From Streptomyces asoensis (lineage in GTDB: Bacteria; Actinomycetota; Actinomycetes; Streptomycetales; Streptomycetaceae): a stretch of 64,000 nt of DNA. Made by a program: the position numbers and the translations under genes. Positions 3,951 to 38,647 of the stretch are shown here, in pieces; within the stretch, counting starts at the first letter, position 1, and the number at the start of each line of letters is the position of its first letter. The DNA is taken from NCBI RefSeq assembly GCF_013085465.1, contig NZ_CP049838.1:9920001-9984000 (forward strand). Reading direction: 5' to 3'. The notes below the pieces were generated by a model. That model was given only the letters and a program-made list of their open reading frames with translations. It did not search any database and had not been told where the DNA came from.

Positions 3951-5108
3951 ATGGAATCGATTCCCCTGGTCCACGCGAGTCTGGGAGAACAGGAACTGGC
4001 CGCCGTCGCGGAGGTGTTCGCCTCCGGCTGGCCGGCCGGCCAGGGCCCCCGCGGCAAAGCCCTGGAAGCCCAGCTCACGCAGAAGTACGGCGTCGGCGAC
4101 GCCGTCGCGGTGAGCAACTGCGGCGCCGCACTGCACCTGGCCCTGCTCGCCCTCGGCGTCAAACCCGGCGACGAGGTGATCGTCGCCGACTACACCTTCC
4201 CCGCACCCGCACAGGCCGTGCGCTACCTCGACGCGGTCCCGGTCTTCGCCGACGTACGCCCCGACACCGGCACCATCGACCCGCAGGCGGTCGCCGACCT
4301 GGTCACCGCCCGCACCGTCGGCATGATCGCCGTCGACACCGTCGGCCTCCCCGCCGACTACACGCAGCTCCAGCAGATCGCCGACCGCCACGGCCTGTTC
4401 GTCGTCGAGGACGCCGCCTGCGCGGTCGGCGCGACCTACCAGGGCCGCGAGGCGGGCGCCCTCGCCGAGGTGGGCTGCCTGTCCTTCCACGGCCGCAAGG
4501 GCGCCACCAGCGGCGAGGGCGGCGCCCTGCTCGCCGCCGACGCGAAGATCGGGGCGGACGCGCGGCTGCGCTCCTCCTTCGGCATCGGCAGCATCTTCGA
4601 CATCAGCGAGGTCGTCGGCCTGCCCATCCCCGAATTCACCGAGATCGGCTACAACTTCAAACTGTCCGACATCGCCGCCGCGATCCTCCAGGTCCAGCTG
4701 GGCCGCATCGGTGAACTCCTGGCCCGCCGCACCGCCGTCGCCGCCCGCTACGGCGAACTCCTCGCCGGTGAGGACCTCCTGACGGTCCCGCACGTGCCCG
4801 AGGACCGCACCCACGCCTGGCAGTCCTACATGGTCACGCTGGACGCGGGCGTGGACCGCGCCGCGGTCGCCGCCGAACTGCGCGCCCAGGGCATCGGCTG
4901 CGGACACGGCACCTGGGCCACCCACGTACAGCCCGTGTTCGAGTCGAAGCAGACCTGCCCGGTCTCGGCGGACCTCTTCCGCCGCAATCTCGCCATCCCC
5001 ATGCACGCGGAACTCTCCGCGGACCAGGTCGAACGGGTCGTGACCGCCCTGCGCAGCGCGGTCCGCACCCACTCGGCCTCCTCCAAGGCCCTAGGAGGGG
5101 CAGCATGA
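3951..5108 (+). CDS. PLP aminotransferase of the DegT/DnrJ/EryC1/StrS family (Fur3-like)
   Basis: A 385-residue sugar-aminotransferase-fold enzyme. The PLP lysine is in SFHGRKGATSGEGG, the DegT active-site signature, and EDAACAVGATYQG supplies the cofactor Asp region. No deoxysugar genes lie nearby. The setting beside THN synthase and a cupin matches furaquinocin-type pathways, where an aminotransferase of this family makes an 8-amino-flaviolin intermediate. It starts at ATG 3951 behind a GGGAG site, 16 nt after the cupin stop, and overlaps the next gene by ATGA. The final furanonaphthoquinone type has no ring nitrogen, so the amino group would be removed later (see the ANL and creE/creD entries). 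Confidence 0.85.
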   Translation: MESIPLVHASLGEQELAAVAEVFASGWPAGQGPRGKALEAQLTQKYGVGDAVAVSNCGAALHLALLALGVKPGDEVIVADYTFPAPAQAVRYLDAVPVFADVRPDTGTIDPQAVADLVTARTVGMIAVDTVGLPADYTQLQQIADRHGLFVVEDAACAVGATYQGREAGALAEVGCLSFHGRKGATSGEGGALLAADAKIGADARLRSSFGIGSIFDISEVVGLPIPEFTEIGYNFKLSDIAAAILQVQLGRIGELLARRTAVAARYGELLAGEDLLTVPHVPEDRTHAWQSYMVTLDAGVDRAAVAAELRAQGIGCGHGTWATHVQPVFESKQTCPVSADLFRRNLAIPMHAELSADQVERVVTALRSAVRTHSASSKALGGAA

Positions 5109-6100
5109 CCGACAGCGCACCGTCACCGGACAACGTCCTGCGGCTCATCAACGGATACTGGGCCACCGGCGTCCTGGGCGCCGCGGCCTCCCACTTGCTC
5201 TTCACCCACCTCGAGACCGGCGCGGACACGGCCGCCCTGCTCGCCGCCCGCGCCGAGATCTCCGAACGGGGCGCGCAGACCCTCCTCGACGGGCTCGTCG
5301 GCATGGGCCTCGTCGAGCTGCACGCGGGCCGCTACCGCAACACCCCCGAGGCGTCCGCCTACCTGGTCGAGGGCAAACCCGCCTCGCTGAGCAGCTTCGC
5401 CCAGCTCAAGCTGAAGCACATGGGCAGCCTGCGCCACCTGGCCGACGTGGTCCGCGCCGGGGGACCGGTCAGCGACCCGGCCACCGAGGTGGCCGACAAC
5501 CCGCACTGGGAGGAGGTCGTCCCCGCCATCGCCGCACAGTCGGTGCCCGCCGCCACGGTCGCCGCCGAGGTGCTCGGGCTGGCCGGGGCCGGCGAGATCT
5601 CCATCCTCGACGTGGGCGGAGGCTCGGGCATCTACTCCGGCGTCTGGCTCCAGGCCAACCCGGCCGCCCGCTCGACCCAGCTCGACTGGGAGCCGATCAA
5701 CGCCATCGCCCGCCGGCTGCTGGCCGAACGCGGCGTGGCCGACCGGTTCACCTGCATCGACGGCGACTTCCACACCACCGACTTCGGCACCGCCGCCTAC
5801 GACATCGCGCTGTACTCCCACATCGCCCACCAGGAGGGCCCCGAGGACAACGTCGCGGTCTTCGCCCGGCTGCGGCAGGCCCTCAGGCCCGGCGGCGCCC
5901 TGGTGGTCTGCGACTACGTCGTCGACGACGACCGCAGCGGCCCCGCCTTCCCGCTGATCTTCGCCTCGGAGATGCTCCTCAAGAGCAAGCAGGGAGGCAC
6001 CTGGCGCCAGGCCGACTACCGCGACTGGCTCATCAAGGCCGGCTTCACGGACGTCTCGTTCCACTCCGCGCCGCCCGCCACCCTGGTCGTCGCCCGGTAA
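5105..6100 (+). CDS. SAM-dependent methyltransferase, O-methyltransferase family 2
   Basis: A 331-residue enzyme with an N-terminal winged-helix dimerisation region (about residues 5-100) and a Rossmann methyltransferase domain with SAM motif ILDVGGGSGIYSG (about 160-172). Homologues methylate hydroxyl or ring carbons of polyketides and quinones. Its ATG at 5105 overlaps the aminotransferase stop by four bases, which implies translational coupling in the naphthoquinone operon. Furanonaphthoquinone-type products carry both C-methyl and O-methyl groups; which one this enzyme adds cannot be read from sequence. Confidence 0.85.
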   Translation: MTDSAPSPDNVLRLINGYWATGVLGAAASHLLFTHLETGADTAALLAARAEISERGAQTLLDGLVGMGLVELHAGRYRNTPEASAYLVEGKPASLSSFAQLKLKHMGSLRHLADVVRAGGPVSDPATEVADNPHWEEVVPAIAAQSVPAATVAAEVLGLAGAGEISILDVGGGSGIYSGVWLQANPAARSTQLDWEPINAIARRLLAERGVADRFTCIDGDFHTTDFGTAAYDIALYSHIAHQEGPEDNVAVFARLRQALRPGGALVVCDYVVDDDRSGPAFPLIFASEMLLKSKQGGTWRQADYRDWLIKAGFTDVSFHSAPPATLVVAR

Positions 6101-6220
6101 CAGCAATCCGGCTCCGGCACCCGCCGGGACCGCCACGGCGCGCGCAACCGGCGCGCTCAGCCTGAACGCCTCGCCGCGCGCCCCGATGCACACCGTGCCC
6201 GTAACCGAATGTGGGGATGT

Positions 6221-7123
6221 ATGTCGGAAAACACCGAGCTGGCAGGTCTCTACGCAGTCATCGAAGAATCGTCCCGGCTGGCGGGCGTCACCTGCTCGCG
6301 TGACACGGTCTGGCCGATCCTGACCGCGTACGCAGACACCCTCGCCCAGGCCGTCGTGGCCTTCAGGGTGGCGACGGGGGAGCGCAACGCAGGAGACTTC
6401 GACTGCCGCTTCACCATGCTCCCCAAGGACCTCGACCCCTACGCGGTCGCCCTGTCGAACGGCCTGACCCCCAAGACGGCACACCCCGTCGGGAGCCTGC
6501 TGCAAGAACTGCACCGGGAATTCCCCGTCCAGAGCAGCGGCATCGACTTCGGCGTCGTCGGCGGCTTCAAGAAGACCTGGTCGTTCTTCCCGACCGACGA
6601 CCTGCAGTCACTGTCCAGGCTGGCCGAACTGCCCTCGCTGCCGGACAGCGTGGCCGCCAACCTCGACTTCTTCACCCGGTACGCACTGGCCGACCGGGTG
6701 AGCCTGGTCGGGATCGACTACCCCAACCGGTCGCTGAACCTGTACTTCGGCGCGGCGCCCGCCGACGTCTTCCGGCCCGAGGGAATCACCTCCATCCTGC
6801 GCGACGCCCAACTGGGCGAGCCCAGCGAGCGGCTCCTGCGGCTCGGCGCGCAGGCCTTCGGCATCTACGCCACCCTGAGCTGGGAATCGGCGAAGGTCGA
6901 GCGGATCACCATCGCCGCCATGACACCGGACCCCACGACACTTCCGGTGCGCATCGAACCGAAGATCGAGCACTTCGTGAAGAACGCGCCCTACAGCACC
7001 GACGACCGCCAGTTCGTCTACGCGATCACGTCGTCACCCAAGGGCGAGTACCACAAGCTCCAGTCGTACTACCGGTGGCAGCCCCGGGTCGAGAACATCC
7101 TGCTGGTCTCCGACCACCAGTAG
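6221..7123 (+). CDS. ABBA-fold aromatic prenyltransferase 1 (NphB/CloQ/Fnq26 family)
   Basis: Transfers an isoprenoid diphosphate to an electron-rich aromatic acceptor. The 300-residue protein has the family pattern: YAVIEESSRLAG...CSRDTVWPIL near the N-terminus, GIDFGVVGGFKKTWSFFP near residue 105, GIDYPNRSLNLYF near 160 and a C-terminal LQSYYRW strand. There is no DDxxD motif, as expected for the ABBA group. The ATG at 6221 is preferred over 6209 because GGGGA sits 5 nt upstream. It directly follows the naphthoquinone core genes, so a flaviolin-type acceptor is the likeliest partner. Two related paralogues lie at 20774 and 40692. Confidence 0.9.
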   Translation: MSENTELAGLYAVIEESSRLAGVTCSRDTVWPILTAYADTLAQAVVAFRVATGERNAGDFDCRFTMLPKDLDPYAVALSNGLTPKTAHPVGSLLQELHREFPVQSSGIDFGVVGGFKKTWSFFPTDDLQSLSRLAELPSLPDSVAANLDFFTRYALADRVSLVGIDYPNRSLNLYFGAAPADVFRPEGITSILRDAQLGEPSERLLRLGAQAFGIYATLSWESAKVERITIAAMTPDPTTLPVRIEPKIEHFVKNAPYSTDDRQFVYAITSSPKGEYHKLQSYYRWQPRVENILLVSDHQ

Positions 7124-7163
7124 CGGCCCCCACCCGGCGGACAGCCGAGAGAAGGAACCGATT

Positions 7164-7775
7164 GTGGAACCCGTCAACGTCGCCGTCATCTACTACAGCT
7201 CCACCGGAACCGTGCACGCCCTGGCGCAGGCCATCGTCGAGGGCGCGCAGAAGGCCGGCGCCGGCGTGCGCCTGCGCAAGGTCCGCGAACTGGCTCCGCC
7301 GGAGGCGGTCGAGGCCAACCCGGCCTGGGCCCAGCACCTGAAAGACAGCGCCGGCGTCGCCGAGGCCACCCTCGACGACCTGGGCTGGGCGGACGCGGTG
7401 CTGTTCGGCACCCCCACCCGCTTCGGCAACGCGGCCAGCCAGCTCAAAGCGTTCATCGACACCGCCGGCCCCCTGTGGCAGCAGGGCAGGCTCGCCGGCA
7501 AGGTGTGCTCGGCCTTCACCTCCAGCGGCACCGCCCACGGCGGCCAGGAGTCCACCCTGCTGGCGCTGAGCAACACCTTCTACCACTGGGGAGGCATCAT
7601 CGTGCCGCCCGGCTACACCGACCCGATCCAGTTCCGGACGGGCAACCCCTACGGCACCTCCCATGTGGCCGGGGCCGGCGCGCCCGGCGACGAGGTGCTC
7701 CAGGCCGCCCGCCACCAGGCCCGGCGCGTCGTGGACACCGCGGCGGCGCTCAAGGCCGGCCGCGCAGCCTCCTGA
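7164..7775 (+). CDS. wrbA: NAD(P)H:quinone oxidoreductase, WrbA family flavodoxin fold
   Basis: A 203-residue flavoprotein with the FMN-binding loop VIYYSSTGTVHALA at the N-terminus, GTPTRFGNAASQLKAFID in the middle and the GHGGQE-like segment GTAHGGQESTLL, all typical of WrbA. It performs two-electron reduction of quinones with NAD(P)H. The GTG start at 7164 has AAGGA 7 nt upstream. Its position 40 nt after prenyltransferase 1 suggests that it reduces the naphthoquinone, either to give an electron-rich hydroquinone for prenylation or to supply electrons for a reductive deamination. The precise substrate is inference. Confidence 0.85.
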   Translation: MEPVNVAVIYYSSTGTVHALAQAIVEGAQKAGAGVRLRKVRELAPPEAVEANPAWAQHLKDSAGVAEATLDDLGWADAVLFGTPTRFGNAASQLKAFIDTAGPLWQQGRLAGKVCSAFTSSGTAHGGQESTLLALSNTFYHWGGIIVPPGYTDPIQFRTGNPYGTSHVAGAGAPGDEVLQAARHQARRVVDTAAALKAGRAAS

Positions 7776-8389: not shown

Positions 8390-9976
8390 ATGAAGGGCTC
8401 TGTGGCCTATCAATCGATACAGAAGCGCGGCCTTCACATCGGCCTGCTGCCGGCGTTGGCCGCGGCCGTCAACGGGTCGACGCCGATCACCCTCGACCAT
8501 GATCTCGACGTCCTGCCCGAGGCGGGCCGCCACCTGACGGTCTCCCGGCTCGCCGACCTGGTGGACGACCTGGCGGCCCGTCTGTGGGCGGCCGGGGTGC
8601 GCCCCGACGAGCACATCGTGGTCCACAAGCGGGCCAACGCCGATGTGTGGGTGCTGGCCTGCGCCGCGTCCCGGATCGGCGCGGTGCCCGTGATGCTGTC
8701 GCCCGGCCTGGACCCGGCGACCGTCGCCGCCCTGCTCGAGCGGGTCGAGCGGCCCAGCCTGCTCACCGACGGGCACAAGCTGGACGCGCTGGCCGAGGTG
8801 CCGCTGGCAGAGCTGACCCGGCGGGTGCTCACCGTCGGCGGTGCGCGGCCCGGGGCGCACTCGCTCGGCGAGTTCGCCGGGGCGCCGCGGGTGAAGCCGG
8901 TGGTGCGGCCGATCGACGAGGCCGCCGTGATCACCCACACCTCCGGCACCACCGGACTGCCCAAGCTGGTCGTGCACACGCCCCGCACCCAGGGCATCCG
9001 CCTCAAACCGCAGTGGCGGCTGCTGTCCCTGATGCGCAAGAAGGAGACGGCCGCGATCCACATCTCCTTCGTGCACTCCCGGATGGTCGCGGCGATGGCC
9101 CTGGCACTCCTGCGGGAGATGCCGGTGCTGCTCATGAACGAGTCGGACCCCGCCACGGTCGCCGAGCTGTTCCTCACCCACCGGCCCGGGCTCATCGAGG
9201 CACTGCCCAACTCGCTGATGGACTGGGAGGGCCTGACCGAGGACGCCCGCAGGCCGTTCGCCTCGGTGAAGTACTTCAGCAGCACCTTCGACGCCATCCA
9301 CCCCCGCACGATGAGCCGGCTGCTGAAGTCCTCCGAGCGGCGCGGGGCCCTGTTCTTCCAGATCTACGGGCAGAGCGAGGTCGGCCCCGCCGTCGGCCGC
9401 GCCTACTTCCGCGGCTCCGCCCACAAGGTCGACGGGCGCTGCGTCGGCTGGCAGATGCCCCGGGGCGCGGCGAAGGTGCGGGTGGTCGGCCGGGACGGCA
9501 GACCACCGTCCGAGAAGAACCCCGGCTTCATCGAGGTTGCCTGGCCCGGCCTGGCCAAGACCTACTTCGCCGAGCAGGAGCGCTACGACAGCAACCGCGA
9601 CGGCGACTGGTGGCGGACCGGCGACGTCGGCTACCGCACCAGGTTCGGCTGCCTGCACATGCTCGACCGCGAGGTCGACATGATCGCCGGGGTGCGCAGC
9701 TCCCTCGAAGTCGAGGACCTCGTGCTCGGCCGGCTCGACGAGCTGAGCGAACTCGTCGTGATCCAGGGCCCCAACGCCGAGCCGGTCCCGGTGATCTGCA
9801 CCCACGACGACCGGCCCCTGGACCGCGACCGCTGGCGCGCGGCCGTCGCCGCCTTCCCCCAGCTGGCCGACCCGATCCAGATCCCGCAGGCCGAACTGCC
9901 GCGCACCGCCACGCTGAAGGTGCAGCGGCTCGCACTGGCCAGCCGGCTCCAGGACCAGCTCGAGGACCGGACGTGA
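8390..9976 (+). CDS. ANL-superfamily adenylating enzyme; candidate ATP-dependent diazotase (CreM-like) or acyl ligase
   Basis: A 528-residue AMP-forming enzyme. Visible core motifs are THTSGTTGLPKLVVHTP (P-loop, about 182-198), QIYGQSEVGP (about 324-333), RTGDVGY (409-415), the hinge DREVDMIAG (426-434) and PRTATLKVQR with the A10-type lysine at 510. The ATG at 8390 has AAAGGAG upstream. Members activate acids as adenylates, but a subgroup (CreM and relatives) instead uses ATP and nitrite to diazotise aryl amines. A creE/creD-like nitrite-forming pair lies at 35257-38647 and an aminotransferase precedes it at 3951, so diazotisation of an amino-naphthoquinone is a coherent role. An ordinary aryl or acyl ligase cannot be excluded. 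Confidence 0.75.
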   Translation: MKGSVAYQSIQKRGLHIGLLPALAAAVNGSTPITLDHDLDVLPEAGRHLTVSRLADLVDDLAARLWAAGVRPDEHIVVHKRANADVWVLACAASRIGAVPVMLSPGLDPATVAALLERVERPSLLTDGHKLDALAEVPLAELTRRVLTVGGARPGAHSLGEFAGAPRVKPVVRPIDEAAVITHTSGTTGLPKLVVHTPRTQGIRLKPQWRLLSLMRKKETAAIHISFVHSRMVAAMALALLREMPVLLMNESDPATVAELFLTHRPGLIEALPNSLMDWEGLTEDARRPFASVKYFSSTFDAIHPRTMSRLLKSSERRGALFFQIYGQSEVGPAVGRAYFRGSAHKVDGRCVGWQMPRGAAKVRVVGRDGRPPSEKNPGFIEVAWPGLAKTYFAEQERYDSNRDGDWWRTGDVGYRTRFGCLHMLDREVDMIAGVRSSLEVEDLVLGRLDELSELVVIQGPNAEPVPVICTHDDRPLDRDRWRAAVAAFPQLADPIQIPQAELPRTATLKVQRLALASRLQDQLEDRT

Positions 9977-10035: not shown

Positions 10036-11109
10036 ATGACACCGGAAGCCACACTCGCACGACTGCGTGAATACATGGTGGGCCCCTCGCGGTTCATGAC
10101 CGTGCTGTCCTGCTTCGAGCTGGGGATCGTCGACGCGCTGCGGGACAGGCCCGGCCTGACGGCCACCGAGCTCGGCGACACCGTCGGCGCCAAGCCGGAC
10201 GCCGTGCAGCAGCTTCTGCACCTCCTGGTCAAGGAGGGCTTCGTCGCCCGGGACGAGGAACTGGGCACCTACCGCCTCGACGCCCTCGCCGGCGTCGCCG
10301 AGAGCGACCTGCGGCGCGCCCTCGCCTACATGAACATGATCAAAGTGGTGGCGCTGCGCCAGCTCTTCTACCTCACCGAGAGCACCCGCACCGGCACCAT
10401 CGTCGGACTCAAGGAGCTGTACGGGGTGGACGAGGGCACCCTGTACGGTGCGGTCGCCGACCACGCGGACCTGCGGGACGCCTGGGCGAACCTGATGAAC
10501 ACGGTCACCGCCAACATCGACCCCTGGTTCTTCGCCAACGTCGACATCCCGGCCGGGGCGAAGGTGCTCGACCTTGCCGGCAACACCGGGCTCGGCGCGA
10601 TCCACACCTACCGGCACAAGGCCTCGCCCGGTCTTCACGTCACCACCTTCGACCTGCCGGAGAAGGAGAACGAGGCCCTGGAGAACTTCAGGACCCACGG
10701 GGTGGCGGAGCACTGCTCGTTCATCGGCGGCGACGTCTTCGACGGCGTCCCCGAGGGCTTCGACATCGTCCTGATCAAGCACTTCCTGGACATGTTCGAC
10801 AAGGACGACGTCTTCAGGATCCTCAAGGGGGTCAACGCGTCCCTGGAGGTCGGCGGCCAGGTCAACATCATGGTGCCGGTGTACCCGGAGGACATCACCG
10901 ACACCGACAACTACAACGTCGACTTCTTCCCGGCCTTCTTCATCGGCTGCGCCATGGGCCAGGGCGGCCCGCAGCAGCTGTCGGTCTACCAGAGCTGGCT
11001 GGAGGAGTGCGGGTTCAAGGTGACGAAGGCCGTCACCAAGGCCCCCTCCGAGATCCCGCCGGACGTCATCCCGGTCCAGGCCATCCTGTCCGCGACGAAG
11101 GTCGCCTGA
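10036..11109 (+). CDS. SAM-dependent methyltransferase 2
   Basis: A 357-residue methyltransferase with an N-terminal winged-helix region (TELGDTVGAKPDAVQQLLHLL, about 48-68) and a Rossmann SAM site VLDLAGNTGLGAIH near residue 177, slightly different from the usual DxGGGxG. DIVLIKHFLDMFD is the acceptor-side helix. ATG 10036 gives the normal family length, 59 nt after the ANL stop. It probably acts on a naphthoquinone intermediate (C- or O-methylation); the substrate cannot be assigned. Confidence 0.82.
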   Translation: MTPEATLARLREYMVGPSRFMTVLSCFELGIVDALRDRPGLTATELGDTVGAKPDAVQQLLHLLVKEGFVARDEELGTYRLDALAGVAESDLRRALAYMNMIKVVALRQLFYLTESTRTGTIVGLKELYGVDEGTLYGAVADHADLRDAWANLMNTVTANIDPWFFANVDIPAGAKVLDLAGNTGLGAIHTYRHKASPGLHVTTFDLPEKENEALENFRTHGVAEHCSFIGGDVFDGVPEGFDIVLIKHFLDMFDKDDVFRILKGVNASLEVGGQVNIMVPVYPEDITDTDNYNVDFFPAFFIGCAMGQGGPQQLSVYQSWLEECGFKVTKAVTKAPSEIPPDVIPVQAILSATKVA

Positions 11110-11197: not shown

Positions 11198-11908
11198 GTG
11201 AAGATATCCGTATCCGGCACCTACTCTTCGGGCAAGACCTCCACGGTGATGGCCTTGTCGCACTACACCGGCGTTCCGCGCAGCCTGGCCCGGACGATCC
11301 GCGGGATCATGCCCGAGGCCCTCCCCGGCCTGAAACTCGCGGACGTGACGCCGCCCCAGTTCCTTCAGCTCACCCTCCGCCGGCACACCGGCCGCGCCGT
11401 GCAGGAAGCGCTGCTGGGGGACAACTTCATCTCCGACGGCTCCTCCCTGCAGGAATGGCTGTACGGGGCGGCCCGGGTCAGGTACGGCATGAACCCGAAC
11501 GCCACCGCGGACGGCCAGGACCGCCGAACGGCACACGACTCCGAGGAGATGGCCTTCTTCGCGCAGGTCGTCGAACAGTACGGACAGGCGTTCAAACAGC
11601 ACGTCAAAAGCACCTACGACGCCTACGTCCACCTGCGCCACGAACTGCCGATCGCGGCGGACGGCCACCGGCCGATGAACAACGAGTTCCGCGCGACCAT
11701 CGACACGATGCTGCTGGCCACGCTCGACGAACTGGAGATCCCCTACCACGTGGTCGGCGGCGCGATGGCGCAGCGCCTGGAGACCATCGCGGGGATCTTC
11801 GACCTGAAGCCGGTCATGAGCACGGCGGAAGCCATCGAACTGGCCCGCCAGGAGTACGGCCGGCAGGACTTCCGCATGGAGACCGAGCGGATTTCCGCCC
11901 GGGCGTGA
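11198..11908 (+). CDS. P-loop NTPase/kinase-like protein of unknown role
   Basis: A 236-residue soluble protein with a Walker A motif GTYSSGKT at residues 7-14 in a 'MKISVSGTYSSGKTSTV' context like NadR-type nucleotide kinases and AAA_28 ATPases. YVHLRHELPIAADGHRP and VVGGAMAQRLETI may form the lid and C-terminal parts. The GTG at 11198 follows a hairpin. It sits between biosynthetic genes on the same strand, so a role in the pathway (phosphorylation or adenylation of an intermediate or cofactor) is possible, but no substrate can be named. Confidence 0.65.
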   Translation: MKISVSGTYSSGKTSTVMALSHYTGVPRSLARTIRGIMPEALPGLKLADVTPPQFLQLTLRRHTGRAVQEALLGDNFISDGSSLQEWLYGAARVRYGMNPNATADGQDRRTAHDSEEMAFFAQVVEQYGQAFKQHVKSTYDAYVHLRHELPIAADGHRPMNNEFRATIDTMLLATLDELEIPYHVVGGAMAQRLETIAGIFDLKPVMSTAEAIELARQEYGRQDFRMETERISARA

Positions 11909-11934
11909 GCCCCCTGCCATCGAGGAGAACACCG

Positions 11935-12531
11935 ATGCACAAGCCGCCCAGAATCGCCGTTGCCTACCACTCCGGCAGAGGCCACACCGAGGTACTGGCG
12001 CAGGCCGTCCGGACCGGCGCGCAGGCCGCGGGCGCCGAGACGACCATGGTGATCGTCGACGCCATGGACGACGCCAAGTGGGAGATCCTCGACACGGCCG
12101 ACGCGATCGTGTTCGGGGCGCCCACCTACATGGGGTCGGCGTCGGGGAAGTTCCACGCCTTCGCCGAATCGACCAACAAGCGCTGGGCACGCCAGGCCTG
12201 GAAGGACAAACTCGGCTCGGGGTTCACCATCAGCGCCTGCAAGGCGGGCGACAAGGACTCCAGCCTCGGCTACTTCGCGACCCTGGGCGCCCAGCACGGA
12301 ATGATCTGGGTCAGCCTCGGCCTGCTCCCGGGCTGGCACCTCAGCCACGAGAGCGAGAACGACCTGAACCGGCTCGGGTACTTCAACGGCGCCGCCGCAA
12401 CCCTGCCCGGAGACCTGCCCCCCGACGCCGTGCACAAGGCGGACATCGCCACGGCCGAGCACCTGGGCCGGCGCGTCGCCGAGCAGACGGCGGCATTCCT
12501 CACCGGACGCGCGGCACTGACCCACCGGTAG
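11935..12531 (+). CDS. Flavodoxin-fold NAD(P)H-dependent FMN reductase-like protein
   Basis: A 198-residue flavodoxin-like protein. AVAYHSGRGHTEVLAQAV forms the phosphate-binding loop for FMN and VFGAPTYMGSASGKFHAF the second flavin loop. It differs from the WrbA copy at 7164, with a C-terminal stretch HLSHESENDLNRLGYFNGAAAT that resembles flavodoxin family proteins found in quinone pathways. ATG 11935 has GAGGAG 9 nt upstream. It probably reduces a quinone or supplies reduced flavin. Two different flavodoxin-fold reductases within 5 kb suggest separate reductive steps. Confidence 0.78.
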   Translation: MHKPPRIAVAYHSGRGHTEVLAQAVRTGAQAAGAETTMVIVDAMDDAKWEILDTADAIVFGAPTYMGSASGKFHAFAESTNKRWARQAWKDKLGSGFTISACKAGDKDSSLGYFATLGAQHGMIWVSLGLLPGWHLSHESENDLNRLGYFNGAAATLPGDLPPDAVHKADIATAEHLGRRVAEQTAAFLTGRAALTHR

Positions 12532-12554
12532 CGCACGAGCAGAGAGACAGCGAC

Positions 12555-12965
12555 ATGACGACACAGCAGCGGTCCACCCAGGCGGTCCTGGACTCGTTCT
12601 TCGAGAAGTTCGGGGCCGGCGACCTGCCGGGCCTGCTGGAACTGTTCGCCGACCACGTGGACTTCCGCGTCCAGGGAAGCCCCCGCGTGCCGTGGACGGG
12701 CACCCGCACCACCAAGGCGGAGATCTCCGAATTCTTCCAGATCTTCCCCAAGGTGCTGACGGGCCCGCAGAGCTTCACCCTCACCGCGCGCATCGTCGAC
12801 GGGCAGGACGCGGTGGTGACGGCCGACTCCGTCTTCGGTGTCCTGGCCACCGCAAAGAGCTTCACCAACAGCTACGCCCTGCACGTGCGCGTCGAGAACG
12901 CACGGATCACCCGCTACCACATGTACGAAGACAGCTACGCCATCGCCGAAGCCTTCACCGAATGA
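12555..12965 (+). CDS. SnoaL-like/NTF2-fold small protein
   Basis: A 136-residue alpha+beta-barrel protein with the SnoaL pattern VLDSFFEKFGAGDLPGLLELFADHVDF and a terminal HMYEDSYAIAEAF strand. NTF2-fold proteins in antibiotic clusters act as cyclases, isomerases or hydrolases on aromatic polyketide intermediates. ATG 12555 is preceded by AGAGAGACAG, 23 nt after the flavodoxin-like gene, so these two are likely co-transcribed. Fold assignment is good; reaction unknown. Confidence 0.75.
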   Translation: MTTQQRSTQAVLDSFFEKFGAGDLPGLLELFADHVDFRVQGSPRVPWTGTRTTKAEISEFFQIFPKVLTGPQSFTLTARIVDGQDAVVTADSVFGVLATAKSFTNSYALHVRVENARITRYHMYEDSYAIAEAFTE

Positions 12966-13028
12966 CCCGCACCGTGCGCTGAGCGGCACGGGGCGGACAG
13001 CGGCTCTTCGGCGAGACAAGGAGCGCCT

Positions 13029-15046: not shown

Positions 15047-15077
15047 CAGCACCGACGACGCCTGGAAAGGAAATCCC

Positions 15078-15326
15078 ATGACGATACGGACCGGCATACA
15101 GCCCGAGCCCGTACTCGACGTTCTGAAGACGCACTTCGACGTCCCCCCCGAAACGACGGCCGACACCGATTTCGAGAGTCTCGACCTGGATTCCCTGGTC
15201 CTCATCGAGTTCGCGGTCATCCTGGCGAAGCAGTACGACATCGACGTGGCCGCGGACGAACTGGCCGCCGCCGGCACGGCGGCCGAGGTCGCCGGACTGC
15301 TGTCGGCCAAGGGCGCACACACCTGA
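15078..15326 (+). CDS. Acyl carrier protein
   Basis: An 82-residue acidic four-helix carrier with the phosphopantetheine serine in [10 protein letters not shown] (serine about residue 39). ATG 15078 follows a GGAAAGGA site. The preceding FabH-like gene is the obvious partner for loading and extension; the AvrD-like protein two genes upstream may take the product. No acyltransferase for malonyl loading is nearby, so the general FabD would be needed. Confidence 0.88.
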
Positions 15327-15396
15327 TCCGGCACCCCGACGGCTGCGCGTGCCCGTCACCGGCGTGTGTCCACCACCCCAGTCTCTTGGAGCTGTC

Positions 15397-16623
<1,227 letters not shown>

Positions 16624-16660
16624 CCGGACAGCCCCGCGGAACACCGCGGCGCCCAGACCG

Positions 16661-16699
16661 GCGGGGAGCGGTGGCACCCCCCGTCCCACCGCTCCCCGC
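16661..16699 (+). terminator. Strong hairpin terminator after metK, followed by pyrimidine tract
   Basis: A 14-bp perfect stem (GCGGGGAGCGGTGG at 16661-16674 with its complement at 16686-16699) and an 11-nt loop. A C/T-rich tract with the repeated CTTCCTCCACTCCCG unit follows at about 16699-16790. Confidence 0.8.
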
Positions 16700-18835: not shown

Positions 18836-20276
<1,441 letters not shown>

Positions 20277-26493: not shown

Positions 26494-26763
26494 ACCGCGC
26501 CCGGCGTGCCGGCACACCTCGGGCACCGGCACGCCGCGGCGCCCGCGGGCACGACGCACGGCCGCTGCCGCTGCCGCCTCCCGCGCGGCGCCGGCCACCG
26601 CTGAACGCTCCCGCCGCGCCCCCCACCGCCGCACGAGGGGCCACGCCCTCCTGCTCCGCGGCGCGCGCAGCGACGCGGGACCCGGCGCGGACGGCCTGCG
26701 CCCGGCACTCCCGGACCTGACGTCGTGCTTCATTCCTTTCCAGAACTGGATACCGCGATCTCC

Positions 26764-29946: not shown

Positions 29947-31034
29947 TCGCACAACGCAAGGACGACCACGTCCGGCTCGCCGCCGACCAGCAGCGCGAGC
30001 ACAGCGGACACAACCAGTTCGACGAAGTGTCGTTCGTCCACCACGCCCTGGCCGGCATCGACCGGCCGGACGTCTCCCTGGCCACGACCTTCGCCGGCAT
30101 CTCCTGGCCGGTACCGCTCTACATCAACGCGATGACCGGCGGCAGCGAGAACACCGGCCTCATCAACCGGGACCTGGCCATCGCCGCCCGCGAGACCGGC
30201 GTGCCCATCGCGTCGGGATCCATGAGCGCCTACTTCAAGGACCCCTCCTGCGCCGGCACCTTCAGCGTGCTGCGCGAGGAGAACCCCGACGGGTTCGTCA
30301 TGGCCAACATCAACGCCACGGCCTCCGCCGACAACGCACAGCGCGCCGTCGGCCTGCTGCGGGCCGACGCCCTGCAGATCCACGTCAACACCGTGCAGGA
30401 AACGGTGATGCCCGAAGGAGACCGCTCCTTCGCCTCCTGGGCCGGACAGATCGAGAAGATCGCCGCCGCCGTCGAGGTTCCCGTGATCGTCAAGGAGGTC
30501 GGATTCGGGCTGAGCCGGGAGACCGTCGCGACGCTGAAGAACCTGGGCGTGCGGGTCGCCGACCTCGGCGGCCGCGGCGGCACGGACTTCGCCCGCATCG
30601 AGAACGGCCGGCGCCAACTCGCCGACTACGCCTACCTCCACGGCTGGGGACAGTCCACCGCCGCCTGCCTCCTGGACGCCCAGGGCTGCCTCCTGCCCGT
30701 CCTCGCCTCCGGCGGCGTGCGCAACCCGCTCGACGTCGCCCGCGCCCTGGCGCTCGGCGCCGCCGGCGTCGGCGCGTCCGGGGGATTCCTGCGCACCCTC
30801 CTCGACGGCGGCGTGTCCGCGCTGATCGCGCAGCTCGCCACCTGGCTCGACCAGCTGGCGGCGCTGCAGACGATGCTCGGCGCGCGCACCCCGGCCGACC
30901 TGACGCGCTGCGACGTGCTCCTCCACGGCGACCTGCGGTCCTTCTGCGCCGACCGGGGCATCGACACCCGGCCGCTGGCCCGGCGCTCCGGCAGCCCGGC
31001 CGCCCTCCACGAGATGACGGGAAGCACACGATGA
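29943..31034 (+). CDS. fni: Type 2 isopentenyl-diphosphate isomerase (FMN-dependent)
   Basis: Interconverts IPP and DMAPP, supplying the allylic starter for prenyl transfer. The 363-residue TIM-barrel protein shows RKDDHVRLAADQQ, YINAMTGGSE, GSMSAYFKDP, QIHVNTVQE, VKEVGFGLS, DLGGRGGTDFARIE and ASGGVRNPLDVARALALGA, the FMN-binding and type 2 hallmarks. It overlaps the phosphomevalonate kinase stop by ATGA. Confidence 0.97.
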   Translation: MIAQRKDDHVRLAADQQREHSGHNQFDEVSFVHHALAGIDRPDVSLATTFAGISWPVPLYINAMTGGSENTGLINRDLAIAARETGVPIASGSMSAYFKDPSCAGTFSVLREENPDGFVMANINATASADNAQRAVGLLRADALQIHVNTVQETVMPEGDRSFASWAGQIEKIAAAVEVPVIVKEVGFGLSRETVATLKNLGVRVADLGGRGGTDFARIENGRRQLADYAYLHGWGQSTAACLLDAQGCLLPVLASGGVRNPLDVARALALGAAGVGASGGFLRTLLDGGVSALIAQLATWLDQLAALQTMLGARTPADLTRCDVLLHGDLRSFCADRGIDTRPLARRSGSPAALHEMTGSTR

Positions 31035-32092
31035 CTGAGGCGCACGCGATCGCCGGGGTCCCCATGCGCTGGGTGGGACCCGTACGCATCTCGGGGAACG
31101 TCGCCACCACCGAGACCCAGGTCCCCCTGGCCACCTACGAGTCGCCGCTGTGGCCCTCCGTGGGCCGCGGCGCGAAAGTCTCCATGCTGGCCGAACAGGG
31201 CATCGTCGCCACCCTCGTCGACGAGCGGATGACCCGCTCGGTGCTCGTCGAGGCAGCCGACGCACAGACCGCACTCACCGCCGCACGGACCATCGACGCC
31301 CGCATCGGCGAACTGAGCGAACTGGTACGCACCTCCAGCAGGTTCGCCGAACTGATCGGCATCCGCCACGAGATCAACGCCAACCTGCTGTTCATCCGCT
31401 TCGAGTTCTCCACCGGCGACGCCTCCGGCCACAACATGGCCACCCTCGCCTCCGACGTGCTCCTGGGACATCTGCTGAAGACGATCCCGGGCATCTCCTA
31501 CGGATCGATCTCCGGGAACTACTGCACGGACAAGAAAGCGACCGCGATCAACGGCATCCTCGGCCGCGGCAAGAACGTGGTCACCGAACTGCTCGTGCCG
31601 CGTGACGTGGTCGAACGCGTCCTGCACACCACGGCCGCCAGGATCACCGAGCTGAACATCCGCAAGAACCTGCTCGGCACCCTGCTCGCCGGCGGAATCC
31701 GCTCGGCCAACGCCCACTTCGCGAACATGCTCCTCGGGTTCTACCTGGCGACCGGCCAGGACGCCGCCAACATCGTCGAAGGATCGCAGGGCGTCGTCCT
31801 GGCCGAGGACCGCGACGGCGACCTCTACTTCGCCTGCACCCTGCCCAACCTGATCGTCGGCACGGTGGGCAACGGCAAGGGGCTCGGCTTCGTGGACACC
31901 AACCTGGCCCGGCTCGGCTGCCGGGCCGAACGCGCCCCCGGGGAGAACGCCCGCCGCCTCGCCGTCATCGCCGCGGCGACCGTGCTGTGCGGCGAACTCT
32001 CCCTCCTCGCGGCCCAGACCAACCCGGGCGAACTCATGCGCGCACACGTCCAGCTGGAACGCGACAACAAGACCGCAAAGGTTGGTGTTTAG
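31031..32092 (+). CDS. mvaA: HMG-CoA reductase, class I-like
   Basis: Reduces HMG-CoA to mevalonate with NADPH. The 353-residue catalytic domain lacks membrane helices. GNYCTDKKATAINGILGRGK contains the catalytic lysine and resembles class I (eukaryote-type) enzymes, FSTGDASGHNM is the NADPH-binding DAMGxN-type motif, GTVGNGKGLGF follows, and the catalytic His is near the C-terminus in MRAHVQLERDNK. ATG 31031 overlaps the isomerase stop. Confidence 0.96.
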   Translation: MTEAHAIAGVPMRWVGPVRISGNVATTETQVPLATYESPLWPSVGRGAKVSMLAEQGIVATLVDERMTRSVLVEAADAQTALTAARTIDARIGELSELVRTSSRFAELIGIRHEINANLLFIRFEFSTGDASGHNMATLASDVLLGHLLKTIPGISYGSISGNYCTDKKATAINGILGRGKNVVTELLVPRDVVERVLHTTAARITELNIRKNLLGTLLAGGIRSANAHFANMLLGFYLATGQDAANIVEGSQGVVLAEDRDGDLYFACTLPNLIVGTVGNGKGLGFVDTNLARLGCRAERAPGENARRLAVIAAATVLCGELSLLAAQTNPGELMRAHVQLERDNKTAKVGV

Positions 32093-32095
32093 GGC

Positions 32096-33271
32096 ATGGC
32101 CAGCGATTCCGCCATAGGCATTCACGATCTGTCGTTCGCGACCACCGGGTTCGTCCTGCCGCACACCGCGCTCGCCGAACACAACGGCACCGACATCGGC
32201 AAATACCATGTGGGCATCGGCCAGCACTCGATGAGCGTGGCCGGCGCCGACGAGGACATCGTGACCATGGGCGCCGCCGCCGCCGCGCCCATCATCTCCC
32301 GGCACGGCGCCGACCAGATCCGCACACTCGTCTTCGCGACGGAGTCGTCGATCGACCAGGCGAAGTCGGCCGGCGTGTACGTGCACTCCCTGCTCGGGCT
32401 GCCGTCGGCCACCAGGGTCGTCGAACTGAAGCAGGCCTGCTACGGAGCGACGGCGGCCCTGCAGTTCGCCATCGGCCTCGTCCACCGCGACCCCGCGCAA
32501 CGGGTCCTGGTGATCGCGAGCGACATCTCCAAGTACGAACTCGACAGCCCCGGCGAGGCCACCCAGGGCGCGGCCGCCGTAGCCATGCTGGTCACCGCCG
32601 ACCCCGCGCTGGTACGCATCGAGGAACCCTCGGGCCTGTTCACCGCCGACGTCATGGACTTCTGGCGGCCCAACTACCGCGACGCCGCACTCGTCGACGG
32701 ACAGGAGTCCATCACCGCCTATCTGCAAGCGGTCGAGGGCACCTGGAAGGACTACCAGGAACAGGGCGGCCGCTCACTCGAGGAGTTCAGCGCGTTCTGC
32801 TACCACCAGCCGTTCACGAAGATGGCCCACAAGGCACACCGCCACCTGCTGAACACCTGCGGCTACGACACCGACGAGAGCGACATCAAGCGCGCCATCG
32901 GCCAGACCACAGCCTGCAACACGGTCGTCGGCAACAGCTACACCGCATCCGTCTACCTCGCACTCGCCGCGCTGCTCGACCACGCGGACGACCTGAGCGG
33001 CCGGCCCGTCGGCTTCCTCAGCTACGGCTCCGGCAGCGTCGCCGAGTTCTTCGCCGGCACCGTCGTGCCCGGCTACCGCGCACACCTGCGCACCGAGGCG
33101 CACCGCGAGGCGATCGAGGGACGCCGGCTGCTCGACTACGCCGCCTACCGCGAGCTGCACGAGTGGTCCTTCCCCACCGACGGCGGCGACCACCCCACCC
33201 CGGCGCAGACCACCGGCCCCTTCCGGCTCGCGGCGCTGCGCGGCCACAAGCGCATCTACGAAAGGCGCTAA
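32096..33271 (+). CDS. mvaS: HMG-CoA synthase
   Basis: Condenses acetoacetyl-CoA and acetyl-CoA to HMG-CoA. A 391-residue thiolase-fold enzyme with Glu83 (ATESSID), the nucleophile Cys115 (LKQACYGATAAL) and His in CYHQPFTKMAHKAH. ATG 32096 lies three bases after the HMG-CoA reductase stop. Its TAA stop (33269-33271) lies inside the left target duplication of the IS481-type remnant, so the insertion landed on the very end of this gene. The encoded protein keeps full length. Confidence 0.96.
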   Translation: MASDSAIGIHDLSFATTGFVLPHTALAEHNGTDIGKYHVGIGQHSMSVAGADEDIVTMGAAAAAPIISRHGADQIRTLVFATESSIDQAKSAGVYVHSLLGLPSATRVVELKQACYGATAALQFAIGLVHRDPAQRVLVIASDISKYELDSPGEATQGAAAVAMLVTADPALVRIEEPSGLFTADVMDFWRPNYRDAALVDGQESITAYLQAVEGTWKDYQEQGGRSLEEFSAFCYHQPFTKMAHKAHRHLLNTCGYDTDESDIKRAIGQTTACNTVVGNSYTASVYLALAALLDHADDLSGRPVGFLSYGSGSVAEFFAGTVVPGYRAHLRTEAHREAIEGRRLLDYAAYRELHEWSFPTDGGDHPTPAQTTGPFRLAALRGHKRIYERR

Positions 33272-33272
33272 C

Positions 33273-35256: not shown

Positions 35257-37215
35257 ATGACAGCGAGACATCGCACGGTGTGCGTGATAGGTGCCGGACC
35301 GCGCGGGCTCTGCGTGCTCGAGCGGCTGTCCGCCAACGCCCGCTCGATACCCCAGGGCAGCACCGTCCACGTCCATGTGGTCGACCCCTACCCGCCGGGA
35401 CCCGGCAGGGTATGGCGCACCGACCAGTCCCCTCACCTGCTCATGAACACCGTCGCCGGACAGATATCGGTGTTCACCGACGCCAGCGTCGACATGCGCG
35501 GCCCCCTGGAACCCGGACCGAGCCTGCACGAGTGGGCCGTGGCGCTCACCGCGGGCGAGAGCGGCGACGACCACCCGGCACACGTCCTCGAAGAGGCCCG
35601 CGCCCTGGGCCCCGACACCTACCCCACCCGCGCGTTCTACGGCCGCTACCTGCGATGGGCCTACCGGCGCATCGTCGACGGCGCGCCCGCCGGCCTCACC
35701 GTCACCTCCCACCGCTGCCGCGCCGTGGCCCTGGACGACGCCCCCGACGGCCCGCACGGCCCCCGCCAGCGGGTGACGCTCGCCGACGGAACCCTGCTGG
35801 AGGATCTCGACGCCGTGATCCTGTGCCAGGGACACCTGCCGGCCCGCCCGGACACCGCCGAACAGGAACTGCTCTCCCAGGTACGCCGGCGGGGGCTGTG
35901 CCACATCCCTCCGGCCAACCCCGCCGACGTCGACCTGGACGTCCTGGCCCCCGGCACGAAGGTGCTGCTGCGCGGACTCGGACTGAACTTCTTCGACTAC
36001 CTCGCCCAGCTCACCGTCGGCCGCGGCGGCTCCTTCACCCAGGTCAGCGGCCGGCTCACCTACCACGCCTCCGGACAGGAGCCGCTGATCCACGCGGGCT
36101 CCCGGCGCGGCATCCCCTACCAGGCCCGGGGCGAGAACGAGAAGGGCCCCCACGGCCGCCACGAGCCGCTCCTGCTCACCCTCGATCGCATCGCACAGCT
36201 GCGCCGTACCCACGACGGCTCCGGAGCCGACTTCAAGGACGACCTGTGGCCGCTGATCTCCCGCGAGGTCGAAGCCGTCTACTACGCGACGCTGCTCAGG
36301 TCACGCGGAGACACCCTCCACGCACAGCGGTTCCAGGCCGACTACCTGGGAGCCGGCTGGGGACAGCGGCACACCGACGCCGTCCTCGACGCGTACGGCA
36401 TCGGCGACAAGGACCGCTGGGACTGGGAACTGCTCGCCAAGCCCTACCGCAACCGGGAGTTCACCGGCCCGCAGGACTTCACCGGCTGGCTCCTGGACTA
36501 CCTGCGCCAGGACGCCGCGGAAGCGAAGTCCGGCAACGTCAGCGGCCCGCTCAAGGCGGCCCTCGACGTCCTGCGGGACCTGCGCAACGAGATCCGCCTG
36601 GCGGTCGACCACGGCGGCCTGCACGGCGACTCCTACCGCACCGACCTGGACGGCTGGTACACCCCGCTCAACGCACACCTGTCGATCGGCCCGCCGGCCC
36701 GGCGCATCGAGGAGATGGCGGCGCTCATCGAGGCCGACACGCTGCGGATCGTCGGGCCGGACATCCAGGTGGCCGTCGACCGCACCGGATACACCGCCAG
36801 TTCACCGCTCGTGCCCCATTCGGCGGTCCGGGTCGACGCCCTCGTCGAGGCACGCCTGCCCGTGATCACGCTGAACCGCACCGATGACACACTCCTGCGC
36901 CATCTGCTGGACACCGGACAGTGCACCGCCTACCGCATCCGCACCCGCTCCGGAGACACCTACCAGACCGAGGGCATGGCCGTCACCGAGCGGCCGTTCC
37001 GCCTGATCGACGCGAGCGGACGCGCACATCCGCGCCGCTTCGCCTTCGGGGTGCCCACCGAGTCGGTGCACTGGGTGACGGCCGCCGGCATCCGGCCCGG
37101 CGTCAACTCGGTGACACTCACCGACGCCGATGCCATCGCCCGCGCGGCACTCGGCTGCGACACCGCACACGGACAGGACGCTCCCACCGGACAAGGACTC
37201 GCACATGCCCAGTGA
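35257..37215 (+). CDS. creE: FAD/NAD(P)-binding monooxygenase, CreE-like (aspartate to nitrosuccinate)
   Basis: A 652-residue flavoprotein with the FAD Rossmann motif CVIGAGPRGLCVLERL (GxGxxG at 12-17), the FAD_NAD-binding family segment VDPYPPGPGRVWRTDQSPHLLMNT and a long C-terminal part. Homologues CreE and FzmM oxidise L-aspartate to nitrosuccinate. The assignment is supported by the next gene, a fumarase/aspartase-superfamily lyase overlapping by 11 nt, the same pairing as creE/creD. The product nitrous acid is used for N-N bond formation or diazotisation. No N-N natural product is expected from the neighbours, which makes its use here interesting. ATG 35257; ribosome site weak. Confidence 0.8.
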   Translation: MTARHRTVCVIGAGPRGLCVLERLSANARSIPQGSTVHVHVVDPYPPGPGRVWRTDQSPHLLMNTVAGQISVFTDASVDMRGPLEPGPSLHEWAVALTAGESGDDHPAHVLEEARALGPDTYPTRAFYGRYLRWAYRRIVDGAPAGLTVTSHRCRAVALDDAPDGPHGPRQRVTLADGTLLEDLDAVILCQGHLPARPDTAEQELLSQVRRRGLCHIPPANPADVDLDVLAPGTKVLLRGLGLNFFDYLAQLTVGRGGSFTQVSGRLTYHASGQEPLIHAGSRRGIPYQARGENEKGPHGRHEPLLLTLDRIAQLRRTHDGSGADFKDDLWPLISREVEAVYYATLLRSRGDTLHAQRFQADYLGAGWGQRHTDAVLDAYGIGDKDRWDWELLAKPYRNREFTGPQDFTGWLLDYLRQDAAEAKSGNVSGPLKAALDVLRDLRNEIRLAVDHGGLHGDSYRTDLDGWYTPLNAHLSIGPPARRIEEMAALIEADTLRIVGPDIQVAVDRTGYTASSPLVPHSAVRVDALVEARLPVITLNRTDDTLLRHLLDTGQCTAYRIRTRSGDTYQTEGMAVTERPFRLIDASGRAHPRRFAFGVPTESVHWVTAAGIRPGVNSVTLTDADAIARAALGCDTAHGQDAPTGQGLAHAQ

Positions 37216-38647
37216 CACCACCCTCACCGCGGACCCGGCCGCCGGCCCGGCCGCGGCGCAGCCGGACTGCGGCCTGCTCTCGCCGGTCTGGGCGGACGCA
37301 CCCATCGCGGCCGCGGTGTCCGACAGCGCCTGGTTGCAGGCCATGCTGGACGCCGAGGCGGCACTGAGCCGGGCGCAGGCCCGCCTGGGCACGGTGCCCG
37401 AGACAGCCGCACGGGTGATCACACAGTCGGCACGGGCCGACCGCCTGGACCTGATGTCCCTGGCCCGGCAGGCACGCCAGTCCGCCAACCCCGTGGTGGC
37501 GCTGGTACGGGAGTTCACCGCGCTGGTGGCGGCCCGGGACGCCGACGCGGCCGCGTACGTGCACCGCGGGTCCACCAGCCAGGACATCCTCGACACGGCG
37601 ACCGTCCTGGTGGCCCGCCGGGCCCTGCGGCTGATCCGCACCGACCTGGAACGCATCGAGCAGGCGCTGGCCGCACTCGCCCGCGAACACCGCGACACCC
37701 TCATGGCAGGCCGCACCCTGGCCCTGCACGCGGTGCCGACGACCTTCGGCTGCAAGGCCGCAGGCTGGCGCCACCTCGTCCTGGACGCGGCACAGAAACT
37801 GGACCGCCTCACCGGCCGGGACCTCCCCGTCCAGCTCGGCGGAGCCGCCGGAACCCTGGCCGGATACCTCCAGCACGCCCAGGGCGCCGAACCCGCCGCC
37901 TACGTCCAGGACCTCACCGAGGCGTTCGCGGCCGAACTGGGGCTGTCCGCCCCCCTCATCCCGTGGCACACCCTGCGCACACCCGTGGTGGACGTGGCCA
38001 CCGCCGCGGCGTTCACCTGCGGCGCCCTGGGCAAGATCGCCGTCGATGTGCTGTCACTGACCCGCACCGAGGTCGCCGAGGTGCACGAGCCGGCGCCCCC
38101 GGGCCGCGGCGCGTCCTCGGCCATGCCGCACAAGCGCAACCCCGTCCTGGCGACGGCGATCAGATCCGCCGCGCTACAGACACCGCAGCTCGCGGCGACC
38201 GTACTGGGCTGCCTGCTGAGCGAGGACGAGCGCTCCGCCGGCGCCTGGCACGCCGAATGGGAGCCGCTGCGCGCCCTTCTGCGGCTGACCGGAGGAGCGG
38301 CGCACCAGGCGGCGGACCTCGTCTCCCAGCTGTCGGTGGACACGGCACGCATGCGTGCCAACACCCAGATCACCGGGGGACAGATCGTCTCCGAGAGGAT
38401 CGCCGCCGTCCTCGCGCCGCTGCTCGGAAAGGCGCGGGCGCGGGAACTGCTGAACGAGGCATCCGCCCGCTCGGCGCGCACCGGCGAGCCGCTGGCCGAG
38501 ATCCTCGGCCAGGACGACCGGGCGTCGGCCGTCCTGTCGGGCGCCTCGCTCACCGACCTGTTCGCGGCGCAGGCGTACACCGGGGCCGCCGGCCCGCTGA
38601 CGGAGCGCGCGCTGTCCCGGTCACTGCCCCCGCAAAGCACGAAATAG
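37205..38647 (+). CDS. creD: Fumarase/aspartase-superfamily lyase, CreD-like nitrosuccinate lyase
   Basis: A 480-residue enzyme of the adenylosuccinate lyase/carboxymuconate cycloisomerase superfamily: HRGSTSQDILDTATVL holds the substrate Ser/Thr region and PGRGASSAMPHKRNPVLA is the mobile catalytic loop signature. Alone it might be read as a cycloisomerase, but overlap with the CreE-like gene points to CreD/FzmL, which eliminates nitrous acid from nitrosuccinate and leaves fumarate. ATG 37205 is taken because it gives the usual N-terminus and the 11-nt overlap. A palindromic terminator follows. Confidence 0.82.
   Translation: MPSDTTLTADPAAGPAAAQPDCGLLSPVWADAPIAAAVSDSAWLQAMLDAEAALSRAQARLGTVPETAARVITQSARADRLDLMSLARQARQSANPVVALVREFTALVAARDADAAAYVHRGSTSQDILDTATVLVARRALRLIRTDLERIEQALAALAREHRDTLMAGRTLALHAVPTTFGCKAAGWRHLVLDAAQKLDRLTGRDLPVQLGGAAGTLAGYLQHAQGAEPAAYVQDLTEAFAAELGLSAPLIPWHTLRTPVVDVATAAAFTCGALGKIAVDVLSLTRTEVAEVHEPAPPGRGASSAMPHKRNPVLATAIRSAALQTPQLAATVLGCLLSEDERSAGAWHAEWEPLRALLRLTGGAAHQAADLVSQLSVDTARMRANTQITGGQIVSERIAAVLAPLLGKARARELLNEASARSARTGEPLAEILGQDDRASAVLSGASLTDLFAAQAYTGAAGPLTERALSRSLPPQSTK

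Follow-up and report, generated by a model that had tools for sequence, protein, structure and literature searches.

A predicted nitrite-dependent deamination module in a furaquinocin-type gene cluster of Streptomyces asoensis

Why should a gene cluster for a prenylated naphthoquinone encode enzymes that release nitrous acid from aspartate? The question is raised by a stretch of 64,000 nucleotides from the Streptomyces asoensis chromosome (RefSeq assembly GCF_013085465.1, contig NZ_CP049838.1, positions 9,920,001 to 9,984,000), hereafter the window, in which a type III polyketide synthase (PKS), an aminotransferase and an ANL adenylating enzyme are encoded in the same region as an overlapping monooxygenase/lyase gene pair resembling creE and creD. 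Our results indicate that this is very probably a furaquinocin-type meroterpenoid cluster, in which nitrous acid from the CreE/CreD pair would be used by the ANL enzyme to diazotise the amino group of 8-aminoflaviolin, the nitrogen then likely being lost reductively. The diazo-based core of this deamination is not new and has already been reported for furaquinocin: two papers from 2025, citing Noguchi et al. (2025, Chem. Sci. 16, 7912), describe the reductive deamination of 8-aminoflaviolin via a diazo intermediate, a diazo-forming enzyme is reported for the furaquinocin pathway in PMC12670698, and 8-diazoflaviolin and a naphthalene diazonium are named as intermediates in PMC12814520. In the excerpts of the citing literature, neither CreE/CreD nor nitrite is mentioned in connection with furaquinocin, and among the texts searched none joined nitrous acid, diazotization and furaquinocin, although the primary paper of Noguchi et al. 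may well do so. A preliminary description of the window, which had called deamination in a meroterpenoid pathway an unusual use of the nitrosuccinate route, was right in kind, but its core had been published.

The CreE/CreD pair as a source of nitrous acid

The two genes lie on the plus strand and overlap by 11 bases (35257-37215 and 37205-38647). The first is predicted to encode a CreE-type L-aspartate N-hydroxylase (nitrosuccinate synthase), similar to Fur16 and Fnq20. Its only PDB match at an E value of 0.001 is 8cp2 (682 bits), the L-aspartate N-hydroxylase of Streptomyces sp. V2 (PMC10404684), to which it is identical at all 11 residues tested, including the aspartate-binding arginine cluster and Asn62, with Arg597 outside the alignment; with Fnq20 it shares 75 and 80% identity over two aligned pieces. 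The second gene, predicted to encode a CreD-type nitrosuccinate lyase similar to Fur17, exceeds the cut-off of the NCBIfam nitrosuccinate lyase model NF052556 (693.5 vs 650 bits) and has its best PDB match in CreD (5xny; 533 bits, E 8e-159), compared with 280 bits for the best PcaB structure, 1re5; here all 16 residues tested are identical. The residues were chosen from those named in PMC10404684 and PMC13411527 and leave aside the FAD/NADPH sites, and those of CreD do not by themselves exclude PcaB, since some are also reported for a CMLE in PMC13411527. The proposed identity of the pair was thus borne out by model, structure and residue matches, the lyase not being of the carboxymuconate cycloisomerase type. 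CreE would convert aspartate to nitrosuccinate, from which CreD would liberate nitrous acid, and the pair is therefore predicted to supply nitrite from aspartate.

Apart from the copy in a terminal repeat described below, no other CreD above the cut-off was found in the S. asoensis genome. CreE-like matches number four in all, two of them beyond the cluster copies. A second long CreD match in the genome (C1:8394922) was taken as PcaB, as the translations and gene order around it (locus L097) are those of a pca operon.

The ANL enzyme and its association with CreE and CreD

The ANL adenylating enzyme (8390-9976, plus strand) is predicted to be diazo-forming and of the Fur5/NapB4 type. It is 97% identical to a protein of Streptomyces sp. 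NBC_00080, its closest named relatives being Streptomyces, and 81% identical over 527 residues to P0045, a protein labelled 'Fatty-acid-CoA ligase homolog' from the furaquinocin strain, Streptomyces sp. KO-3988. An acyl-CoA ligase is the description given to fur5 in PMC9686526; given its name, its strain and the fur5 entry in Table 3 of that paper, P0045 is most likely Fur5. A lysine resembling that of motif A10, Lys510, is invariant across 14 aligned sequences. In a tree of 59 rows (the window enzyme, P0045, 25 of the 74 loci L008-L081, 13 members of a mid-identity group, one paralogue from the same genome, eight AvaA6-type sequences from genomes above the NF058622 cut-off, and ten CoA ligases or A-domains of S. 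asoensis itself), the window enzyme forms one set with P0045 and the proteins of L008, L010 and L037 (support 100/98). The AvaA6-type rows (100/100) and the ten CoA-ligase/A-domain rows (100/99) stand apart; it is the Fur-type group as a whole, and not this small set, that is weakly supported (63/45). The expectation that phylogeny would separate the enzyme from acyl ligases is therefore sustained, together with a separation from AvaA6-type diazotases, within a comparison that did not extend to CreM. Against family models, the enzyme scores 93 bits for the AvaA6-type model NF058622, whose cut-off is 975, and reaches no cut-off among the 25 listed of the 59 NCBIfam families matched.

The context of the gene was compared across 80 related ANL loci, the best 80 of 202, from 78 searched genomes (L074 shares a genome with L043, and L032 lies outside the searched genomes). 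These loci bear on the possibility that the protein is an ordinary acyl ligase, loading CoA or the nearby acyl carrier protein (ACP; 15078-15326), while CreE/CreD serve another product. Such a role would agree with the ACP gene and a condensation-domain gene close by, and with the top NCBIfam similarity of the enzyme, a general CoA-ligase subfamily whose cut-off it misses by far (131 vs 476 bits). Across the 80 loci, however, the ACP family occurs once, against 60 occurrences of the cupin family and 57 of the aminotransferase, and on this count a function as carrier-protein loader was rejected; with the position of the enzyme in the tree, apart from the ten ligase rows, and its identity to the KO-3988 homologue, an ordinary acyl ligase appears very unlikely.

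If the ANL enzyme depends on nitrite, its gene would be expected to travel with CreE and CreD. Since a CreE-like match at E 1e-60 is found in 239 of the 295 genomes of the genus, CreE alone was dropped as a marker, and CreD above the cut-off, adjacent CreE and CreD, or linkage on plasmids were used instead. CreD above the cut-off is present in 23 of the 26 genomes with an ANL enzyme of at least 59% identity, a line set after inspecting the list, and in 56 of the 269 others (Fisher p 6.4e-12; the 56 may be up to 58, as 81 genomes were tallied above the cut-off and 79 are traceable by name). The three exceptions are G050, with a partial CreD of 647 bits, G156 and G271. The excess is maintained where the ANL enzyme is 50-58% identical (19/23, p 8e-9), and is absent where only relatives of 46-49% occur (9/32, p 0.83); relatives at this last level are the best ANL match in 32 of the 295 genomes. 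In 13 of the 23 genomes the ANL and CreD genes are no more than 30 kb apart on one contig. Among the 78 genomes with a related locus, counted by eye, CreE and CreD are adjacent in 50; in five more, one or both are at the end of a contig, or the two are on separate contigs or 28 kb from each other. Plasmids carrying an ANL enzyme of at least 76% identity have CreE (55-78% identical) in 15 of 15 cases and CreD in 14, the listed CreE being within 20 kb of the ANL gene in 13; these records contain near-copies, including three of S. xanthophaeus. In KMM 9044 the annotated order includes prenyltransferase, methyltransferase, ANL, aminotransferase, cupin and type III PKS, with the lyase (as pcaB) and a FAD protein further on.

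The co-occurrence and linkage fit nitrite-dependent diazotisation, and, with the 2025 papers on 8-aminoflaviolin deamination, lend support to the route that the preliminary description had put forward from the letters of the window. The genome-scale association further supports the view that nitrite-fed cryptic deamination is part of the standard equipment of bacterial clusters for naphthoquinone meroterpenoids. Alternatively, CreE and CreD might belong to the biosynthesis of some other N-N compound, their presence in this region being coincidental: 25 kb separate CreE from the ANL gene, and elsewhere in the genus CreE/CreD loci are found with ANL enzymes of other subgroups (L102-L107). We regard this as very improbable, given that fur16 and fur17 sit in the known furaquinocin cluster (PMC9686526), that Fnq20 is a CreE relative, that the close ANL type and CreE occur together in every one of the 15 plasmids, and that, the repeat copy aside, no further CreD above the cut-off was found in the genome.

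Two side observations concern these loci. CreD-like genes are annotated pcaB in many public plasmid records (e.g. NZ_CP113912.1, NZ_CP115301.1), labels that hide nitrous acid chemistry. L102, L103 and L105 combine CreE/CreD and a mid-group ANL enzyme with a molybdopterin oxidoreductase, a major facilitator (MFS) transporter and pyridine-nucleotide reductases, a set that looks like a module for making nitrite from nitrate alongside the aspartate route; the assignments come from Pfam scans of portions of L102 and L103 and, for L105, from inspection by eye.

The proposed route and the fate of the nitrogen

We propose the following series of steps, in which the substrate of diazotisation would be made by three genes at the head of the cluster. 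The type III PKS (2277-3344), a tetrahydroxynaphthalene (THN) synthase like Fur1, has Pfam chalcone/stilbene synthase domains and occupies the fur1 position; tblastn identity to it is 79-93% across 53 loci that also hold the ANL and aminotransferase genes. The Fur2-like cupin (3377-3934), assigned from its translation and the reading frame indicated by GC at third codon positions rather than from Pfam, is present in all 53 loci with ANL, aminotransferase and THN synthase in the flank, and we infer that it oxidises THN toward mompain. The DegT/DnrJ aminotransferase (3951-5108; PF01041, E 1.6e-93), Fur3-like and in the fur3 position of the cluster of strain Je 1-369, is predicted to form 8-aminoflaviolin by transamination, by homology to fur1-3 and in line with PMC12670698. 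The ANL enzyme, with ATP and nitrite, would then diazotise C8, for which the furaquinocin diazo-forming enzyme is the precedent. A quinone reductase would turn the diazoquinone into a hydroquinone diazonium, whose loss of N2 would give 1,2,4,5,7-pentahydroxynaphthalene, and this hydroquinone would subsequently be methylated and prenylated. All genes on which the preliminary description had built its route, from THN synthase, cupin, aminotransferase and ANL to both flavodoxin-fold proteins and the overlapping monooxygenase/lyase pair, are present.

For the reductive step, one of the two flavodoxin-fold proteins had been suggested, and of these only the one at 7164 tracks with the ANL gene. The most likely candidate diazoquinone reductase is a WrbA-type NAD(P)H:quinone oxidoreductase (7164-7775; NCBIfam NF002999, 176 bits vs cut-off 141), encoded directly upstream of the ANL gene. 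In 14 of the 80 loci a WrbA-family gene lies on the same strand as ANL and no more than 1.5 kb from it, and in Je 1-369 an NAD(P)H:quinone oxidoreductase, Orf5, is encoded between the fur4 and fur5 equivalents (PMC9686526). The other protein (11935-12531) is probably not the reductase and was set aside: its family occurs in three of the 80 loci and accompanies AvrD in L026, where the order is AAA protein, flavodoxin, SnoaL, AvrD, ketosynthase III (KSIII), ACP, and in L047. A small family of about 124 residues, DoxX-like by eye, is found in ten loci and in L018 (9542-9916) directly upstream of ANL; it is a possible alternative quinone partner.

Several observations weigh against the nitrite-dependent deamination proposed here. 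Only 21 of the 80 loci contain a WrbA-family gene, and the Je 1-369 table gives no fur equivalent for it; diazoquinone reduction is for this reason the weakest step. The CreD protein also exceeds the cut-off of the PcaB model TIGR02426 (369.9 vs 355.75). CreE is carried by eight of nine plasmids with an ANL enzyme below 60% identity, seven of them S. goshikiensis-like, so that plasmid linkage extends beyond the close ANL type. Of the 78 genomes that contain a related ANL locus, 23 lack both CreE and CreD, taken as no CreD above 580 bits and no CreE-like match above 41% identity; some of the genomes are drafts or metagenome bins. Among the 23, L009, L011 and L012 encode ANL enzymes 78-84% identical to that of the window. 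Nitrite derived from CreE/CreD is thus not universal, and close cluster relatives in genomes without a visible pair must obtain nitrite elsewhere. In the first batch of loci (14 without the pair vs 33 with it), the gene families enriched in those without it included no obvious alternative source of nitrite. Lastly, a 47% relative of the ANL enzyme is encoded in the same genome (G000:C1:6155710; L101, 7681-9276) with no CreE/CreD within 16 kb. Its gene adjoins aminodeoxychorismate synthase-like, class IV aminotransferase, benzoate-CoA-ligase-like and FAD monooxygenase genes, indicating an aryl-amine cluster.

The nitrogen could also have another fate. If the diazo group forms as proposed but stays or is trapped, the product would carry an N-N bond as a diazo or hydrazone. 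In furaquinocin L, from Je 1-369, the nitrogen of an acetylhydrazone is attached to C5, the carbon adjoining C4 and C5a (PMC9686526), and by our mapping from the nuclear magnetic resonance table this C5 is flaviolin C8, the carbon of the 8-amino group. Diazo napyradiomycins are likewise known, and in azamerone biosynthesis NapB4 is given as a putative diazo enzyme. Retention of the nitrogen nevertheless seems unlikely here, as furaquinocins A-J and the marfuraquinocins are described without it, and no hydrazine-acylating enzyme was identified in the cluster. The authors who described furaquinocin L reported no N-N forming genes in the Je 1-369 cluster (PMC9686526); we find that its Orf7, Orf18 and Orf19 are the equivalents of Fur5, the CreE-like Fur16 and the CreD-like Fur17. 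Fur5-type diazotisation might then be a branch point, at which clusters such as this one strip the C8 nitrogen and also channel part of the 8-diazo intermediate towards antibiotics with an N-N bond. We put this forward as a doubtful, speculative extension of reductive deamination; it would explain furaquinocin L and suggests an origin for its hydrazone, just as the WrbA-type protein offers a concrete candidate reductase.

Layout of the cluster and comparison with known systems

In the searched genome the window corresponds to G000:C1:60301-124300 on the minus strand of a chromosome of 10.04 Mb. Positions 1-60000 are identical to the mirrored stretch near the opposite chromosome end, with 0 mismatches in the 60,000 bases compared, indicating a terminal inverted repeat, which ends near C1 142,145. 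The cluster is consequently present in two identical copies, and knock-outs would need both removed.

The PKS, cupin, aminotransferase, methyltransferase, prenyltransferase, WrbA-type reductase, ANL, flavodoxin, SAM recycling, mevalonate and CreE/CreD genes are read on the plus strand. The aminotransferase is followed by a methyltransferase in the fur4 position (5105-6100; PF00891, family in 37 of the 80 loci), a first ABBA aromatic prenyltransferase (6209-7123; PF11468, E 5.8e-64), the WrbA-type reductase and ANL, and a second methyltransferase (10036-11109; PF00891, 34/80). Next come genes for an AAA protein, the flavodoxin-fold protein, SnoaL, AvrD, KSIII and ACP (11198-15326). An open reading frame (ORF) at 14134-15081 was rejected as out of frame, the true gene being that of KSIII at 14033-15046. 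S-adenosylmethionine (SAM) recycling genes (15349-20276, Pfam) encode SAM synthetase, a pfkB-type kinase, MTHFR and AdoHcy hydrolase, and are followed by a second ABBA prenyltransferase (20774-21688; PF11468, E 1e-46), TetR, MFS and acyltransferase genes, and mevalonate genes (26725-33271, Pfam) for a GHMP kinase, diphosphomevalonate decarboxylase, FMN-dependent dehydrogenase, HMG-CoA reductase and HMG-CoA synthase. Another KSIII gene, CreE and CreD precede the third ABBA prenyltransferase (40551-41570; PF11468, E 5.7e-50).

Judged from sequence, this arrangement gives good support for placing the cluster in the furaquinocin/furanonaphthoquinone family, as one more member with a predicted nitrite-dependent deamination module. 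With the fur cluster of KO-3988 and that of Je 1-369 it shares equivalents of fur1-3, fur5 and fur16/fur17, mevalonate genes and a prenyltransferase (Table 3 of PMC9686526); direct sequence comparison with KO-3988 was confined to ANL, the other equivalents being assigned by family and order. That table lists the fur16/fur17 equivalents as a FAD-binding protein and a muconate cycloisomerase, and among the literature matches listed, PMC9686526 is the only text to name Fur16 or Fur17 as genes. Je 1-369 further shares the quinone oxidoreductase beside fur5, the SAM recycling genes, a TetR_C_16 protein, an MFS transporter and the location in a terminal inverted repeat. As described, its SAM recycling set includes a methionine synthase, of which none was seen among the ORFs scanned here. 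The S. asoensis cluster differs from fur in its three ABBA prenyltransferases and in the AvrD/KSIII/ACP/flavodoxin block. No Pfam match to a polyprenyl synthetase (fur19) was obtained in 40 window ORFs, some in wrong frames and with one protein scanned in the 47-64 kb part.

The fnq cluster of Streptomyces cinnamonensis (furanonaphthoquinone I) has the CreE relative Fnq20, deposited under S. virginiae, and its SAM recycling genes are described as arranged identically to those of Je 1-369 (PMC9686526). By the title of a 2006 paper it also makes prenylated phenazines, and phenazine genes were not seen in the ORFs scanned here. The ava and cma pathways for avenalumic and p-coumaric acid have in common CreE/CreD-type nitrite, ATP-dependent diazotisation and replacement of an amino group by hydrogen (PMC10777205). 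They differ in their AvaA6-type enzymes, which occupy a separate branch of the tree, and in a substrate that is an aminohydroxy-phenylpropenoid and not an aminonaphthoquinone. Among the 40 window ORFs scanned with Pfam there was no epimerase or short-chain dehydrogenase/reductase match, and no AvaA7-type reductase was identified. Cremeomycin biosynthesis (cre) likewise draws nitrous acid from aspartate via CreE/CreD, but there it ends in a retained diazo group.

Two minor features remain at the edges of this comparison. A stand-alone condensation domain of the non-ribosomal peptide synthetase type is encoded at 33-1328, upstream of THN synthase, and a member of the same family occupies the same place in L008. 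The block at 11198-15326 is intact in L026 and partial in L047, and could be responsible for a small acyl product of its own, conceivably a signal.

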